From the NCBI GenBank assembly GCA_943736015.1, contig OX031071.1:33760619-33824618 (forward strand): a stretch of 64,000 bases of DNA, given 5' to 3'. A program made the position numbers and the translations under genes. The DNA is from Tridacna crocea. Lineage: Eukaryota; Mollusca; Bivalvia; Cardiida; Cardiidae. Below the pieces are notes generated by a model. It was not told where the DNA came from. It saw only the letters and a list, made by a program, of their open reading frames with translations, and searched no databases. Position 1 is the first letter of the stretch. Each line of letters begins with the position of its first letter. Positions 10,949-56,640 of the stretch are shown here, one piece after another.

Positions 10949-11846
10949 AGTCCGTGACAGGTCAGATGTCTTATTTTGTATCATTAAATATGTGAACTGT
11001 AGTTCATCAATGAATCATCCTTTTGGTTATCTGTTATGATGCCAAAGATAAGTTATATGCAGTTCAAGACTAGATTCTTTCCATTCAAACATGAAAATGT
11101 AGATTCCTTGACAATTGTCGTGTCCGTGACAAAGGCCATGGAATTATTAAAAATAGCTAAATAACATTTCGATTGAAGCATAAAAAATAAGCTTATAAAT
11201 TATGCAGTACTTGGCAGTCAATTATGACACATTCTGTTTTTTTTACTGGAGTGCAACCTAAATAAATGCTCACTTTACTGATGTGCAGTGCCACATTAAG
11301 GAATCAGGCTGCAGTTGGAAATCAGTAATTTTGCAAACTAGACTGTGCCATACAAATTTATATAGCTGCAATTGACATTTAGTTTAGAACATAAATGCAT
11401 TGCATTTCACAGTTCTATATTAGAAGACACATGGTTATCTGATGAAGCATACTGCTCTGTCACGGACACTACAAGAAATACAAACATCAAAATATGATGT
11501 AATGTAACAAAATGATTTACATAGGACTTTGGATTATCAATTGAGAATCTTGAGAAGAAAACAGTTGACGTTTCAACAAACAGGACCAGAGCAAATAAAA
11601 AAGACTGACTCGTTGCGTGTATGATTTGCCTGAAAATGCTGCTATTTGGTGGCATCCATTAACTGATATCATCTGCTTCATTCAAGATACAGAGCTTCTC
11701 AATGAAACAGAATGGTAAAAAATTTAATCCAACAAATGCAAAACTAGTCTAAATCATTCTGTTAAGCATATGAAGTACATCTAAGCTTTAAGGCAGACAC
11801 ATGAAAAGTTTGAAGCACTAGTGCTGTTGCTGTAGTGTCCGTGACA
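10949..11846. promoter_or_regulatory. Cluster of TGTCCGTGACA sites, left side
   Basis: The partly dyad motif TGTCCGTGACA (TGTC, three bases, GACA) or a one-base variant occurs at about 10,950, 11,121, 11,459 (opposite strand) and 11,836. Two more copies occur at 16,385 and 16,740 on the far side of the nested element. The positions lie toward the two flanks of the 14 kb insertion, as expected of subterminal transposase-binding sites. That function is inference. Confidence 0.4.
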
Positions 11847-12254
11847 ATCTGATGTTTACAGTTATCAAGACATGGTCACATCAAACAACTTTCAAGTCAA
11901 AAGGCTAGTTTGAATACTGCTTTTGATGCTTTGACTCTTACTTAAAAATCCGTTTGAAGTTTCTCTTTTGCTCCAGTCTTCACTGGTCATTTTTTTTTAA
12001 CATCCAAGTTGGAAGAATTCAACAATGAAAAGCTAGTCAGAGTACAAATGGTCATTAAATGTTGTGATTTATTGACCTATTATTGTAGTTTGTTCCATTC
12101 CTTTTAGATTTAACTAGCATTCTCCCTAAGAATCATGCAGGCCCAGTAGAAATGGTGATAAGTTACTTTTTCAGAATACCAAAAAAAGTTAGTGCAATTG
12201 ATTCCTTTAGTCACAAAAGTTCAAAAGCCAAAGGGAAACTTTTATTGTCATGCT

Positions 12255-13569
12255 GTTACCATGGCAACGGCCACAGAAAGTTTTTGCCCCCTGAGGCATA
12301 TTTTTTGCTTTTTAAAACTTAAAAAAATAAGCACTTTGAAGTTAATACAACATATTTGTCAAGAAAAGTCCAGTCAGTTGTGTTATTATAACATAATCAC
12401 CCATGTATTGGCTTACAATATCAAGAATGCAATAGCAAAAATAAGCTTGCAGAATGTGTTTCTATGGCAACGAACAAAGGTTGAATTTCACATTTCTGCT
12501 GGTGGCTTAAATTGACAAATTTCTATCTCAATTATCTCCTAACAGCAAAGCTAGGATTTAAGGTTTCAATATTGGGCATAAAGACTAATGTATTGGGTCA
12601 CAAATAAAAAAATAAAAAAGGTCAAAATGTTTTTAGGTCAGGCTACCATGGCAACCAAAGTGACAACAGATTTGTAAAATTTGGAAAATGCTGTATTTTA
12701 TGCAAAAAAATGACCACTAAACACAAATATTTGAATGTCAGTTTATACGACATATAAGGTATTAGCACAAATTTGAAAAGCTACAAACAAGATATTTTGG
12801 TTTTGTGTTTAAATTTGGTTTCCATGGCAACCTGAATCTCGACAATGGCATAAAATTGCAATTTTTGCTTATTTTCATGGCAAAATTGTAGAGACTAGAG
12901 TAAGTAAATTGAATAACTCAGGTTTTAGAAATAGCTATCGATTTAACATGTTGTCGATGAAAAAATAAGAATGGGCATATCATATCTTACTCTAGGTAAC
13001 CATGGCAGCCAAAGTGGCAATGTATCGGTAAAATTGAGAAAATACCATTATCTGTCGAATATAATGAACAACAATTTAGAATCTTCATACCCCTCTATAT
13101 ATGGTTCATGGCATGTCAGTTTCATTAGCTCCACTGGCAGAAGGCCAGCGGGCTTATGTCATGGCCAGGTATCTGTCTTGCGTCTGTGTGTCTGTCCGTG
13201 TGTGCGTGTGTGCGTACACGTGCGTGGTACGTGTGTGCATACGTGAAATTTTATTGCAAACATCTTCTCTGAAACCACCCATCCAAATTTGATGAAATTT
13301 CACAGAAATGATCCTGCCATGATCCTCTTCAGAATTTTTTAGAAAGAATTTTAGTCCTTAAAAAACCCTGGTTTCTATGGCAACCTGAATCTCGATACTG
13401 GCATAAAACTGCAATGTTTGCTTATTTTCAAGGAATAATTGTAGAGACAAGAGTAAGTAAACTGAATAACTTTGGTTTTAGAAATACATGTAGCTATTAA
13501 TCTAATGTGTTGTCCATGAAAAAAATAACAATGAGCATATCATATTATAATCCAGGTTACCATGGCAGC
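12255..13569 (-). repeat. Left X-box-like array
   Basis: Sites matching GTTNCCATGGCAAC or one-off variants lie at 12,255, 12,458, 12,642, 12,818, 12,996, 13,371 and 13,556. Steps are mostly 176-203 bp. The flank after the site (CAACCAAAG) is the complement of that in the right array, so this half is inverted relative to it. The block 12,820-13,060 recurs at 13,373-13,620, a higher-order step of about 550 bp. Confidence 0.8.
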
Positions 13570-14150
13570 CAAAGTGGCAACATATCGGTAAAATTGAGAA
13601 AATACAATTATCTATCAAATAGAATGACCAACAATTAAAAATGTTCATACCCCTCTATACATAGTTCCTGGCATGTTAGTTCTCATTCATAAAGTAGCAT
13701 ACATGCTAATTATCTCCCGCCAAAAAGGTGGCTATGTATATTATAATAATAGTAGCCATCCGTCTGTCTGTCTGTCTGTTTGTCTGTCTTTCTGTCTGTC
13801 TATCCATTCTTCCTCCATTCTGTCTATTCCTCTTCGCATCCCAATTTCTTGTATGGAGCACAACTCAAAAACTATTTGAGATATAAAAATGAAACTATAC
13901 AGATAGATAGATCTCATAAAAGAAAAGTGCAGTGCATAAGAACCATTACTCTTGATTGCATATTTTAAGGGTTATTGCCCTTTATTTTCTCACTTAAATT
14001 TTGTCTAGAGCATAACACAAAAACTATTTGAGGAATAAACATGAAACTTCACAGACGGATAGATCTCATCAAAGAGAAGTGTGGTGCATAAGAACCATAA
14101 CTCTTGATTGCATAATTCAAGAATTATTACTCTTTGATATTTTGTTATTT
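13090..14150 (+). repeat. Spacer between arrays: simple repeats and a 150-bp tandem pair
   Basis: It contains a GT-rich run (13,180-13,245), a short repeat with CATCTTCTCTGAAACCACC, and a CTGT-type run (13,757-13,801). It also has two roughly 150 bp units each with CAAAAACTATTTGAG, a GATAGATCTCAT motif and AAGAACCAT (about 13,860-14,120). These look like a dispersed repeat that landed within the element. Part of the left array (13,371-13,569) lies inside this interval. Confidence 0.6.
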
Positions 14151-14183
14151 TCCATACTCTTATGGGGATGAGTTTACTGTTCT

Positions 14184-16179
14184 GTTGCCATGGTAACATT
14201 TTTTTCTGAGGTGTTGAATACTTTTTATCTTTTGTATGTGCATAACATATATTAGTCATTTAAAGTAGGTTTAATTCATTCAGATGCTTCTTGGCTGGAA
14301 GGGGTTAATTTGCTTTGAACAAGCTGTTATTTGTCATGATTCATTGATTTGGTTGCCATGGTAATGACTGGGCCATTATTTTTTTCTTTCACATTTTAAT
14401 ATTGACAAACAGATGTGGGTAATTTAAGTAAGTATTACTTATCAATGTAATCCTTTGTTAATGGGCGTTAGTTTACTTTGAATGTGCTGATTTTTGTTAA
14501 AATCGCAAAATGTTGGATAGTTTGGTTGCCATGGAAACTAATATTTGGATTGTTGCAGAACTTAGATTTTTCTGTATTGGTTGAACAGATGTGGATCCAT
14601 TAAATACATAAATACACTGTAAATATTTTTCCTAGCAGGAGGGAGATAATTTGCTCTAAAATTGCCACTTTTTTTAAGGAACACTGACGGGTCAATAGTT
14701 TTGTTGCCACGGTTACAACAATTATTAACATCTTGAGTTTTTTCATTGTTGGCTGTGAAAAATCAGATGTTGCTCGTTTAGGCACTATATATATTTTTCA
14801 TATGCAGCTTTGCTGTCAGAAGATAATTTGGCTTGAAAATCTTCAAAATTTGAAGTTTGAAAAATTGGTTTCTATGGCTAAACTTTTGTTGCTATGCAAC
14901 ACAATGCAAGTGACATTTTATATTTTTCTATATTTTCCTATGTAATTTCGAGTACTACTCATGCCGTCCTTTTGACATAAGTAGTAGTATAGATAATCTA
15001 AAAGGGCAGTAGTTTTCTTTGAATGTGCTGATTTTTGCTAAAATCGCGAACTGTTGGTTAGTTTGGTTGCCATGGTAACTAATATTTGGATTGTTGCAGA
15101 ACTTAATTTTGTCTTTATTGGTTGAACAGATGTAGATCATTTAATACATAAATTCACTGTAAATATTTCTCTTTGCAGAAGGGAATTAATTTGCGTTGAA
15201 ATTGCCACTTTTTTGCAAAATCACTGACGGGTCAATAGTTTTGTTGCTATGGTTACAAAAATTATATATATTTTGAGTTTTTTTATTGTTGGCTTTGAAA
15301 AATCAGATGTTGCTCGTTTGGGTACTATATGTATTTTTCATATGCACCTTTGCTGTTAGAAGATAATTTGGTTTGAAAATGTTCAAAATTGGAAGTTTGA
15401 AAAACTGGTTTCTATGGCTAAACTTATGTTGCTATGCAACACAATGCAAGTGACATTTTTTTTATTTTTCTATGTAATTTCAAGTACTACTCATGTCCTC
15501 CTTTTAACATATCTTTTAAGTAATAGTATAGATTATCTAAATGGGCAGTAGTTTACTTTGAATGTGCTGATTTTGTTAAAGTCGCAAACTGTTGGATAGT
15601 TTGGTTGCCATGGTAACTAATGTTTGGATTGTTGCAGAACTTTTTTTTTTCTTTATTGGTTGAACAGATGTGGATCATTTAATATGTAAATTCACTGTAA
15701 ATATTTCTCTTTGCAGAAGGTAGATAATTTGCTTTGAAATTGACACTTTTTAGCAAAATCACTGATGGGTCAATACTTTTGTTGCCATGGTAACAAAAAT
15801 TATAAACATTTTGAGTTTTTTTATTGTTGGCCGTGAAAAATCAAATGTTGCTCATTTAGGCCCTATATGTATTTTTCATATGCACCTTTGCTGTTAGAAG
15901 ATAATTTGGTTTGAAAATGTTCAAAATTGGAAGTTTGAAAAACTGGTTTCTATGGCTAAACTTATGTTGCTATGCAACACAATGCAAGTAACATTTTCCA
16001 TTTTACAATGTAATTTTGAGTACTACTCATGTCCTTTTTGTAATATAAGAAGTAGTTTAGATAATCTAAATAATAATGATTTGTCAAAAACCACCCTAAA
16101 AAGTGTCATTTTTCAATTTTTTGACTGACAACTTTCGACCAATTTCCGTGAAATTTTGATTTCTAGTTTCCATGGTAAC
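14184..16179 (+). repeat. Right X-box-like array with 540-bp higher-order repeat
   Basis: GTTGCCATGGTAAC or close variants occur at 14,184, 14,352, 14,525, 14,703, 15,066, 15,243, 15,604, 15,781 and 16,166. Weaker forms occur near 14,868, 14,889, 15,407 and 15,430. Three consecutive 540 bp blocks begin with TTTGAATGTGCTGATTTT at about 14,477, 15,017 and 15,558. Each block contains three subunits of about 180 bp. Confidence 0.85.
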
Positions 16180-17410
16180 CACTGTCAGGAAATGGGAATG
16201 CTTTGTTTTGGGAAAGTTTTTCATCAAGTCTGATGGAATGAGGGTAAAACCAATGAATTCTGTGACTAGTCACTTATCACCATCTGCATGATTCTTAGGG
16301 AGAATGCTAGTTAATGCTGTAAAAAATGATCTGACCTGAAAATGAGCTTAGAGTAAATAAACGCACTGCTACCTACGCTTGTAGTGTCCGTGACAGATTG
16401 ATGAAAAAAATTGTTAGTAGCAGATATCAGAGCCACAAGAACCCAAAATATGCAATTTCTAAATAGATAAATGCCTGAAAAGTTCAAAAATAACTAAGAT
16501 TTGGAGCATTGCCTCCTGTTATATACAAAAAAAAAGATTGGAACATGGTAACAGTAAAATGCATGAAAGGACTGATTTGGTTTATTTTTGAAATAGCCAT
16601 AAAGCTATAGTAGGTTAAAACAAAATCCAAATTTTCATATTGTCTTAATCATACTTTCAAACTCATACATATTCTTTAAGATAACTGTTCCTTTTGGTGC
16701 TTTGAGGCCTCATAAATTATACATAAGACCCTTCAGTAATGTCCGTGACAATTAGGCGGTACATACATTCAAATGAAAATTATGATGAAGAGCATGGAGT
16801 CTAAGTCATGAAATTGCCAGGAAAGCTGCTCGATGTATTAAAAAACAATGTTTTGAAAATTCCTCCAGTTTTCTTAAAACTTTATTTTTTGTCTATGTGC
16901 AAGGTTCTATGAACACCTGGGCCCGGTTTCACGAAAAAACTTAAGTCCGTACTCAACTCAACTGAGTTTACAGGCTTAAGTTCGTTAATTTGCCGAGTTG
17001 AGTCTGAAACGTTGAGTGCGTTTCACGAACGCGTTCTCAGCTGAGTCGCTCATTTCGATGAATTTTTAAACGTCTTAAGCGGTATTTTTGCTACTCTCCA
17101 ATAGTCGAAGTAATAAACTGTAAAAGTTCGGGAACCACTGTCAATATCGCAGTCGTCTGCAATAAAATAAACCAATATTTTCGCATGAAAAACGTACATG
17201 TAGTTGTAAAAAACTATTTTACGGAATTCAATCCGTGTATTCATGCATCGGTATGCACTTCAATGTCGTAAAAGAACTGCATCGCTGTGGTTCTAGTCAA
17301 AATTTATTGAAATTGTTTCATGTTTGAGACCAAAAAACGAGGAAATAAAAAGGGATATCGTTGAGTGCTCTTACTCCAGTGTCCTTGAACCGATGATTTT
17401 TTTTTTGTTT

Positions 17411-29309: not shown

Positions 29310-29485
29310 AGAAACAAAATTTTAAAGCTGATAATAAAAATCCAAATATTGCTTTTTCGTAAGGTAATTTTGCAAGAAAAATATCTGCTCACCGAAAAGT
29401 GTAGATCCAAGATCAGACTGCACAGTCTGATTCTGATCCACACTGTCTGCAGTGATCAGTGAGTCGTGCTTAGCAGCCTAAGTAT
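29310..29485 (+). repeat. Family B palindromic repeat
   Basis: Contains AGTGTAGATCCAAGATCAGA, CTGCACAGTCTGATTCTGAT, CACTGTCTGCAG and ends GTGCTTAGCAGCCTAAG. It is related to copies at 48,665, 49,580, 53,915, 55,208 and 61,675. Full copies hold a central palindrome around GCAC/GTGC. Confidence 0.75.
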
Positions 29486-30306
29486 TATAGATAATCTATA
29501 CTCTTAGGTATTAACCCTTTCTGACACAATGAGGACTTTTGACGATCCTGGGAAAGAAGCCTATTGAAAACATTTTGGAAAAAGAACAAAATACTGCTAA
29601 GTATTAAAGATAATCTATACTCTCAGGTATTAACCCTTTTTCACACAATGAGGACTTTTGACGACCCTGGGAAAGAAGCCTATTGAAAACATTTTGGGAA
29701 AAGGAGAATATGCTGCTAAGTATTAAAGATAATGTATACTCTTAGGTATTAACCGTTTCTCACACAATGAGGACTTTTGACGATCCTGGGAAAGAAGCCT
29801 ATTGAAAACATTTTGGGAAAAGGAGAAAATGCTGCTAAGTATTAAAGATAATCTATACTCTTAGGTATTAACCGTTTCTCACACAATGAGGACTTTTGAC
29901 GATCCTGGGAAAGAAGCCTATTGAAAACATTTTGGGAAAAGGAGAAAATGCTGCTAAGTATTAAATATAATGTATACTCTTAGGTATTCACCCTTTTTCA
30001 CCATGAGGACTTTTGACGACCCTGGGAAAGAAGCCTACTGAAAACATTTTTGGAAAAGGAGAAAATGCTGCTAAGTATTAAAGATAATCTTTACTCTCAG
30101 GTATTAACCCTTTCTGACACAATGAGGACTTTTGACGACCATGCGAAAGAAGCCTACTGAAAACATTTTTGGAAAAGGAGAAAATGCTGCTAAGTATTAA
30201 AGATAATCTATACTCTTAGGTATTAACCGTTTCTCACACAATGAGAACTTTTGACGAACCTGGGAAAAAAGCGTACTGAAAACATTTTGGGAAAGGGAGA
30301 AAATGC
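29478..30306 (+). repeat. 119-bp tandem array made from half a MITE A, 7 copies
   Basis: Units start CTAAGTATTAAAGATAATCT at 29,478, 29,597, 29,716, 29,835, 29,954, 30,071 and 30,190, with steps of 119 bp except one of 117. Each unit is about 33 bp of flank followed by the MITE A left half from TTAACC to AAAATGCTG. The last unit runs on into the right half of a MITE A. Units differ by only a few bases. Confidence 0.95.
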
Positions 30307-30307
30307 T

Positions 30308-40032: not shown

Positions 40033-41392
40033 CGAGGGGTGTTCGAAAAGTTTCGGGACGATTGGCGTCATTCTTTTATTTATTAAGATTTTTTAATGAT
40101 TTTTTTGGTAGTGATAGCTACAACTGTATTCTATAGGAAAATCGAAACAAATGAACGAAGATGTACGCCACACGTGATGAATGGTCACTATAGCAACGTC
40201 AAGTCGACTTGAGCGAGGCACCTTGACGTCACTTCACAAAATAACTTCTTTTTAATTGCAAGTATCGATCACAATAAGCACTCCAGTATGTATTTGAATT
40301 GTGTATGACAAGTATTCGGTCGCAGGGTGCACCGTCTACTACCTGCCATCAAAAGCTACAGTGAATCGCCGACAGTAAGGCTTTCTTGAAACAGTACAGA
40401 GAACGTGGCGACAGGTTCTTAGTATTCATTATCACGGCCGATGTAACTTAGATTGGTTTGTATAATCCAGAGACTAAGCCAGACAATTCTCTGTGTAGAA
40501 AAACATCTAATTGACTCTCGCCTACAAAAGCAATGGTGAAACTTTTATCTTATTGAAAACGGAGTTATTCTCTGCCACACACTGCCATACACTACCGGTT
40601 GGGGAGACAGTCACAGCACAGTATTACTCGAACGTACGGTCTTTTGATTTTTGAACTACATTGTACATAAAATGATATTCTTCTTTTATATCTTGACAGA
40701 ATTGGTTGGTGAAACTATTGATTCATAAACATAATTTCGTTGTGTATGTTGATGCGTAGGTTCAACCATAAGCTCGTTTCAGGTGCACCTGCACCGACAT
40801 GAGTTGACAAGGGCTGTATAGGAGAAACAACCAAAAGAACCCGGCACATTCTACTTACATCACAACAACGCCACACCTAATACTTTGTCAACTACCAAGA
40901 AAGTACCTGCTGGTAGATAGAGTAATACTAAATATTGCGCATCCACAATACTCCCCGGACTCGTACCGTGTCATTCACCACTATCAAGCGTTACTGACGC
41001 GGTCACTGTTTCGACGACGTCGATGTCTTTCCCGTTGTGGTCAGGGAATGTACAAGGAACATTTCATCATCAGACTTCAAAAAATGTTTTAATTCGTGCG
41101 TACATAGGCATCAGAGGCGCACTGAACATACCGTGGAGTATTTTGAATAACCATGACTATTTCAGACGTTTGTAAAGACAAACCTTTTATTTGGTGCATC
41201 AAGGTGCCCCGCTCACGTCGACTTGACGTTGCTATGGTGACAATACATCACGCGTTTCTTGTATCTTCGTTTATTTGTTTCATCCAAACTATAGAATATG
41301 GTTGTAGCTATCATTACCGAAAAATTCATTAAGAAATATCAAAATATAAAAGAATGGCAGCACTTGTCCCGAAACTTTTCGAACACCCCTTG
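40033..41392 (+). mobile_element. mariner-type transposon with about 190-bp inverted repeats
   Basis: The ends CGAGGGGTGTTCGAAAAGTT and the complement of CAAGGGGTGTTCGAAAAGTT lie between TA dinucleotides (40,031-40,032 and 41,393-41,394). Similarity of the two ends continues inward about 190 bp (to about 40,230 and from about 41,205), far longer than the roughly 30 bp usual for mariner. Total length 1,360 bp fits the family. The element is dead by coding inspection. Confidence 0.92.
40855..41090 (+). pseudogene. mariner transposase remnant (C-terminal catalytic region)
   Basis: Translation gives LHHNNATPNT (40,855 on), corresponding to the family motif around the second catalytic Asp, which is Asn here. 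About 28 residues later comes HPQYSPD (40,940-40,960) followed, after a frame change, by LVPCHSPL, where the third catalytic Asp is replaced by His. The two motifs are in different frames, so at least two frameshifts are present. Upstream sequence from about 40,330 is probably the rest of the gene but is too decayed to read. Strand and family are certain enough; activity is excluded. Confidence 0.85.
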
Positions 41393-56011: not shown

Positions 56012-56640
56012 CGCTGAGCCAGTGCAGCTATCCATACTTTTCTGAAGTTTATTCTACATTACTTCGCACATTCCTTCCCAAGCCATTGCCTGCTTACCCT
56101 CACTGAACCATCGTCGAAACAATGATCCTCGACAAAAGAGGAGTAAACAAAATAATTACAGTCAGGCCTATATCGCTGAGCCAGTGCAGCTATCCATAAT
56201 TTCCTGAAGTTTATTCTACCATTAATTCGCAAATTCCTTCCCAAGTCATTGCCTGCTTACCCTCACTGAACCGTCGTCGAAACAATGATCCTCGACAAAA
56301 GACGAATAAACAAAATAATTTCAGTCAGGCCTATATCGCTGAGCCAGTGCAGCTATCCATACTTTTCTGAAGTTTATTCTACCATTACTTCGCACATTTC
56401 TTCCCAAGTCATTGCCTGCTTACCCTTACTGAACCGTCGTCGAAACAATGATCCTCGACAAAAGAGGAATAAACAAAACAATTTCAGTCAGGCCTATATC
56501 GCTGAGCCAGTGCAGCTATCCATACTTTCCTGAAGTTTATTCTACCATTACTTCGCACATTCCTTCCCAAGTCATTGCCTGCTTACCCTCACTGAACCGT
56601 CGTCGAAACAATGATCCTGGACAAAAGAGAAATAAACCCT
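56012..56640 (+). repeat. 163-bp tandem array, about 4 copies
   Basis: CGCTGAGCCAGTGCAGCTAT starts units at 56,012, 56,174, 56,337 and 56,500. Units are more than 95 percent alike by eye. Since 163 is not a multiple of three, the frames through it shift and the predicted peptides are not credible. Confidence 0.95.

Follow-up and report, generated by a model that had tools for sequence, protein, structure and literature searches.

A non-autonomous, TTAA-preferring transposon carrying two opposed arrays of RFX-type X-box palindromes in Tridacna crocea

A DNA transposon that inserts at TTAA, is several kb long and varies in length through internal repeats is known from Daphnia as Pokey, a member of the piggyBac superfamily (PMC4912750). 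The Kolobok superfamily and its miniature inverted-repeat transposable elements (MITEs), known from molluscs among others, duplicate 4 bp with a preference for TTAA (PMC9587614), and the bivalve HINE, BIV160 and Cg170 repeats are satellite-bearing Helentrons, non-autonomous and with arrays of 140-180-bp units (PMC7492417, PMC5139131). Here we describe an element found in a stretch of 64,000 nucleotides of Tridacna crocea (GenBank assembly GCA_943736015.1, contig OX031071.1, positions 33,760,619 to 33,824,618; hereafter the window). It is a complete transposable element of 4.2 kb at window positions 12114-16310, apparently non-coding, lying within TTAA duplications and built largely of regularly spaced X-boxes in two opposed arrays. 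In other settings X-boxes are bound by RFX proteins, which regulate genes for cilia. The CENP-B box arrays of alpha-satellite also repeat a short motif bound by a protein at intervals close to nucleosome spacing; they have another motif and protein and form a satellite, not a dispersed transposon.

Like Pokey, the X-box element is a TTAA-inserting DNA transposon of several kb with internal repeats. The repeats of Pokey come from ribosomal spacers and putatively autonomous forms of it exist (PMC4912750), whereas the X-box element yielded no coding sequence, has X-boxes in its repeats and is not strict for TTAA (7 of 12 copies). It resembles Kolobok in the preferred TTAA and the 4-bp duplication. 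It is like HINE, BIV160 and Cg170 in being non-autonomous and array-bearing, and repeats in this genome that resemble HINE have the same palindrome. However, those families are described with subterminal inverted repeats and a 3' palindrome, as opposed to the 27-bp terminal repeats and 4-bp duplication seen here, and in the three HINE-like loci inspected the box does not occur in every monomer. Among the titles and abstract beginnings listed for RFX or the X-box with transposable elements there was no such element, most subscription journals being outside the coverage, and the same was true of those listed on the palindrome with transposon or satellite, on bivalve satellites and Helitrons, on TTAA transposons and on bivalve MITEs.

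Anatomy, copy number and a non-random array

The element holds 16 sites within two mismatches of GTTRCCATGGYAAC, 5 of them exact and 11 with at most one mismatch. In 200 first-order Markov simulations the mean was 0 for exact sites, 0.005 with up to one mismatch and 0.06 with up to two, no simulation giving more than 1 site at two mismatches, and outside the element the window has a single site of this type (up to two mismatches), at 41228. Adjacent boxes are 168-203 bp apart wherever no box is skipped, the units being about 177 bp long, near the length of a nucleosome repeat, and within the 361-385-bp gaps of the right array a weaker site, GTTGCTATGCAAC, lies roughly in phase at 14888, 15428 and 15966. 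The right array also has a three-unit repeat of about 540 bp, found as three copies of 300 nt with spacings of 540 and 538. A preliminary description, made from the window alone, had claimed close and weaker X-box sites at a spacing of about 165-205 bp and the 540-bp repeat, and both were recovered in our analysis. Its picture of two opposed arrays was accurate as regards orientation but incomplete, as a piece with a relationship to another repeat family breaks up the left array and the middle of the element contains none of the 16 boxes (Table 1).

The boxes themselves are oriented. The typical box in the units is GTTGCCATGGTAAC, read with the centre-facing half first, and the half-site facing the centre of the element is the better one in 14 of the 16 boxes (6/7 in the left and 8/9 in the right array), with ties at 13556 and 16166. 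Read in the same direction, all 16 boxes have T or A at position 11, and the centre-facing halves together hold 4 mismatches to the palindrome, the outer halves 23. Over 205 box instances in aligned copy ends, which are related by descent, the corresponding numbers are 112 and 311.

The published X-box consensus (PMC3414849) is fitted by 7 of the 16 boxes in its human Rfx1 form and by 12 in its Drosophila form. GTTGCCATGGCAAC occurs in two papers, of which PMC3414849 is one. The RFX DNA-binding domain has nine exon-scale matches over the curated cut-off in the genome, two of them with a stop inside, and the assignment of the palindrome to the RFX type in the preliminary description agrees with this and with the published forms. 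Another form, RYYNYYATRRNRAC, which we take to be an X-box consensus, was found in no paper searched, and the fit rests on the published forms instead.

The element belongs to a dispersed family. In the genome (1.05 Gb, 31 contigs) the 27-bp end has 426 matches with up to three mismatches, 215 on one strand and 211 on the other, while the reversed-pattern control has none; this corresponds to about 210 copies, with paired ends mostly 4.1-5.7 kb apart. The preliminary description had noted the inverted ends bordered by TTAA and had named the lack of a second copy with the same ends as grounds for refutation; the ends are exact and such copies exist. At 30 end loci (L016-L045, taken with 1.5 kb on each side) the sequence inward of the end matches the element in 30 of 30 cases, usually for 0.6-1.5 kb, with about 0.4 kb in L023; the copies L019, L022, L023 and L032 depart from the element sequence inward of the end. 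L005, which lies on a different contig, shares 96.5% identity with the window copy across 4219 aligned columns and has the same end bases in different flanks. Among 12 copies with both flanks, TTAA stood on both sides in 7, ATAA in 3 and TTAC in 1, and in the remaining copy the sides were unequal, so that 11 of 12 have identical 4-bp duplications. The target duplication is 4 bp, with TTAA preferred but not strict.

No Pfam match was found in the reading frames of the window copy (the whole plus strand and, of the minus strand, 12110-14300) or in the six frames of the centre of the 5.1-kb copy L050. Three longer copies (L046, L047 and L050) hold about 1.4-1.5 kb of extra sequence at one junction near the middle, not counting a nested insertion in L046. 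In this 8.8-kb copy a frame with a THAP domain (E 4.5e-12) was considered as a candidate transposase and rejected, because it is inside the nested insertion (about 2440-6262 of L046, with TTAA flanks and AGGGCAAATCC termini), which is absent from L047 and L050, and it therefore says nothing about the transposase of the X-box element. Among relatives of this frame, 150 scored of 744 candidates, one run at C11:54.056-54.070 Mb is spaced at 3394-3395 bp. Apart from the rejected frame, the frames scanned in the copies contained no transposase candidate. The inverted ends, the target duplication, the multiple copies in different flanks and the lack of a Pfam match in the frames scanned identify the element as a non-autonomous DNA transposon with terminal inverted repeats.

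Its family is left unassigned. Strictness for TTAA is a feature of the piggyBac superfamily, and Kolobok transposases are associated with THAP domains. The piggyBac domain DDE_Tnp_1_7 has 118 matches in the genome, none within 20 kb of the 100 element ends that were listed out of the 426 (all exact, contigs C1-C10; compared by eye). The termini speak against Kolobok: those of the element read 5'-CT...AG-3', whereas those of Kolobok are 5'-RR and YY-3' (PMC9587614). The term THAP is absent from that paper.

X-boxes elsewhere in the genome

The consensus X-box GTTNCYATGGNAAC occurs 23,144 times on the forward strand of the genome, compared to 92 occurrences of the reversed control. From the first 3 Mb of contig C1, 51 sites outside the element were listed; leaving aside one of the two in L010, the analysis covered 50 of them, and by flank similarity 47 of these 50 fall in one other repeat group, a grouping that did not change when the element's own units were left out. 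By its period of about 166 bp and by its sequence this group resembles the bivalve HINE/BIV160 repeats, which is a resemblance and not a test. Pairs of boxes 154-184 bp apart number 532 on the forward strand, as opposed to 13 in the bin of 109-139 bp and 21 in that of 219-249 bp, with none in any spacing bin of the reversed-pattern controls. All 100 listed pairs of the 154-184-bp class (all on C1) look by eye like element units, as do a few of those listed at 219-249 bp, and most pairs listed in the two comparison bins belong to other repeats. The regular array of about 177 bp is thus the hallmark of the transposon family, and a single X-box is not peculiar to it.

Some minor observations were made on these sites. 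Another small repeat family has two X-boxes spanning 133-135 bp from first to last base, with 7 places listed (C5, C8, C10 and C16). In several of the listed 219-249-bp pairs the X-boxes of the HINE-like repeats stand shortly before TTTTTAGCTCACCTGAGCACAACGTGCTC, perhaps an element end. At position 8663 of L008 an X-box-like site lies in sequence that to the eye looks coding and is unlike any of the repeats sampled.

Possible roles of the X-boxes

The leading explanation, unproven and held by us with somewhat less than even confidence, is that the boxes recruit host RFX proteins to a transposon that depends on others for its movement. The element would be moved in trans by a transposase that recognises the 27-bp ends together with the shared subterminal ATGGTGATAAGT and that duplicates 4 bp, preferring TTAA. 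Host RFX proteins would bind the X-boxes of the two opposed arrays of about 177-bp units, and their binding would hold the element in open chromatin in cells expressing RFX, for example the precursors of flagellated sperm. Open chromatin may in turn favour access of the transposase, or may have favoured its expression in a lost autonomous ancestor. What the sequence shows is the anatomy, the copy number and the non-random array; we infer the binding, the open chromatin and any benefit to transposition. Because both ends carry the 27-bp repeat and ATGGTGATAAGT, their likely recognition signals, definition of the ends probably does not require the boxes. A second repeat group, its flanks mostly dissimilar, has the same palindrome, and this favours a host protein that reads both. 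RFX is the natural candidate.

Several observations weigh against this explanation. The preliminary description had named as a refuting result that the boxes are no more conserved between copies than their neighbours. We had expected high conservation, and the boxes are less diverged only slightly and not significantly: at 16 left ends box divergence is 0.045 compared to 0.059 for the rest (P 0.11), at 19 right ends 0.066 compared to 0.085 (P 0.29), and three comparisons between right-end subfamily consensuses gave P 0.26, 0.36 and 0.53. The alignments of left and right ends (without L047 and without the right end of L016, which is the same as L005) include truncated copies with unrelated inner sequence, which makes both of the values compared noisier. 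The non-significant result among recent copies is what neutral decay after insertion would give, and equally what boxes lacking a function would give. FOX motifs, described in PMC3414849 as partners of X-boxes, show no enrichment within 25 bp of the boxes (6 in 800 bp compared to 22 in 3176 bp); of the two distances tried, they are enriched at the other, within 50 bp (18 in 1600 compared to 10 in 2376). Box 16166, the outermost on the right, is a tie in the window copy, and 8 of 19 aligned copies lack its position-11 change and have its better half outward. In a 1.17-kb copy (L048) most of the arrays are gone and three boxes remain, a loss that perhaps happened after insertion. On the other side, 81 of 120 pairs of units have no recognisable similarity in their flanks (z below 2, ungapped identity 0.32), yet their boxes are 0.86 identical (minimum 0.71), a value partly produced by construction since units were picked for a box with at most two mismatches. 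The occurrence of a box in nearly every step of about 177 bp is not explained by the way the units were picked. Between the window copy and L005, the boxes differ at 2 of 224 sites and the rest at 121 of 3966.

The main rival, possible though on the unlikely side, is that the boxes are passive, the box-bearing unit having multiplied in tandem as satellites do and its palindrome having been kept by breakage and rejoining, through exchange, gene conversion or template switching that tends to occur at the palindrome, and not by use by a protein. Such a history fits the lack of significant conservation among copies and subfamilies as well as box 13371, at which an element unit and a piece of another repeat are exactly joined. 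In the mollusc satellite phBglII400 the junctions map to its palindromes, but the same study found palindromes and junctions unlinked in BIV160/Cg170 (PMC5139131). It is less easily reconciled with a box in nearly every unit step despite the dissimilar flanks of many units, or with the asymmetry of 14 of the 16 sites, as a perfect palindrome would suit recombination better.

Some transposases use subterminal arrays, and the boxes could be internal binding sites for the element's own transposase, since from either end an array leads inward, the two being mirror images in orientation. We consider this unlikely, because the ends already carry the 27-bp repeat and a shared subterminal repeat, the arrays extend far into the element, another repeat group has the same palindrome and a copy with three boxes exists.

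It is more improbable still that the units are captured, degenerate monomers of a HINE/BIV160-type satellite from which the box was inherited. The palindrome is the same, the period is similar (the self-match offset in L001 is about 166 bp), monomers in the literature are mostly 140-180 bp (PMC7492417), a related piece interrupts the left array and three other unit-site pairs (units 12255 and 14352) have shuffle z-scores of 4.1-5.2. However, with a threshold of E 0.01, wide matching is confined to the unit at the 13371 joint (52 alignments); unit 16166 has four weak alignments (E 0.002-0.006) and the other 14 units have none, and neighbouring monomers in the HINE-like loci (L001, L003 and L004) are mostly without a box. 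That the boxes are a chance product of composition is refuted, with next to no probability left to it, by 16 observed sites compared to 0.06 simulated and by 532 spaced pairs compared to none in the reversed-pattern control.

If RFX does bind the arrays, the family would be a natural multi-site reporter of RFX activity, an example of a non-coding transposon organised around a regulator of its host and a supply of ready-made enhancers for cilia or sperm, and it would become testable whether recruitment of a germ-cell transcription factor raises the mobility of a transposon. A wider proposal, which we regard as doubtful, is that two unrelated transposon classes, the TTAA-preferring element and the HINE-like repeats, independently adopted the RFX palindrome to use a host ciliary and spermatogenic regulator. 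The two would then together account for much of the 23,144 consensus X-boxes, and at about 210 places the element would contribute RFX arrays with nucleosome spacing that mostly face the centre. Should RFX binding be absent, the element would be a clean case of a palindrome outliving its repeat unit.

Feature coordinates and flanking sequence

The features of the window copy are collected in Table 1. The piece that interrupts the left array stands between two copies of a unit pair (duplicated units, families D4 and D8).

Table 1. Features of the X-box element, in window positions.
Feature	Position	Strand	Remark
Left target-site duplication TTAA	12110..12113	.	Read from sequence; 12 copies tabulated
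Left 27-bp terminal inverted repeat	12114..12140	+	Perfect inverted match to right end; 426 genome matches with up to three mismatches
Subterminal repeat ATGGTGATAAGT	12152..12163	+	Common to right end, inverted
Left array, 7 boxes	12255..13569	-	Boxes at 12255, 12458, 12642, 12818, 12996, 13371, 13556
Piece related to another repeat family (L002-like), interrupting left array	13125..13384	+	Ends at box 13371-13384
GTCT microsatellite	13762..13801	+	
Middle, two copies of a 152-bp-spaced unit (family D6)	13849..14135	+	Contains 0/16 boxes
Junction where longer copies L046, L047 and L050 hold extra sequence	14158..14160	.	
Right array, 9 boxes	14184..16179	+	Boxes at 14184, 14352, 14525, 14703, 15066, 15243, 15604, 15781, 16166
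Right subterminal repeat ATGGTGATAAGT	16272..16283	-	
Right 27-bp terminal inverted repeat	16284..16310	-	Perfect inverted match to left end
Right target-site duplication TTAA	16311..16314	.	Read from sequence

A short repeat, GTGTCCGTGACA, lies on both sides of the element, at window positions 11835-11846, 16384-16395 and 16739-16750 (family D15), the third copy reading ATGTCCGTGACA. Given these flanking copies, the element may sit inside another repeated sequence. Elsewhere in the window, tandem arrays are found at 29478-30307, with a 119-bp unit in 7.0 copies, and at 56012-56637, with a 163-bp unit in 3.8 copies.

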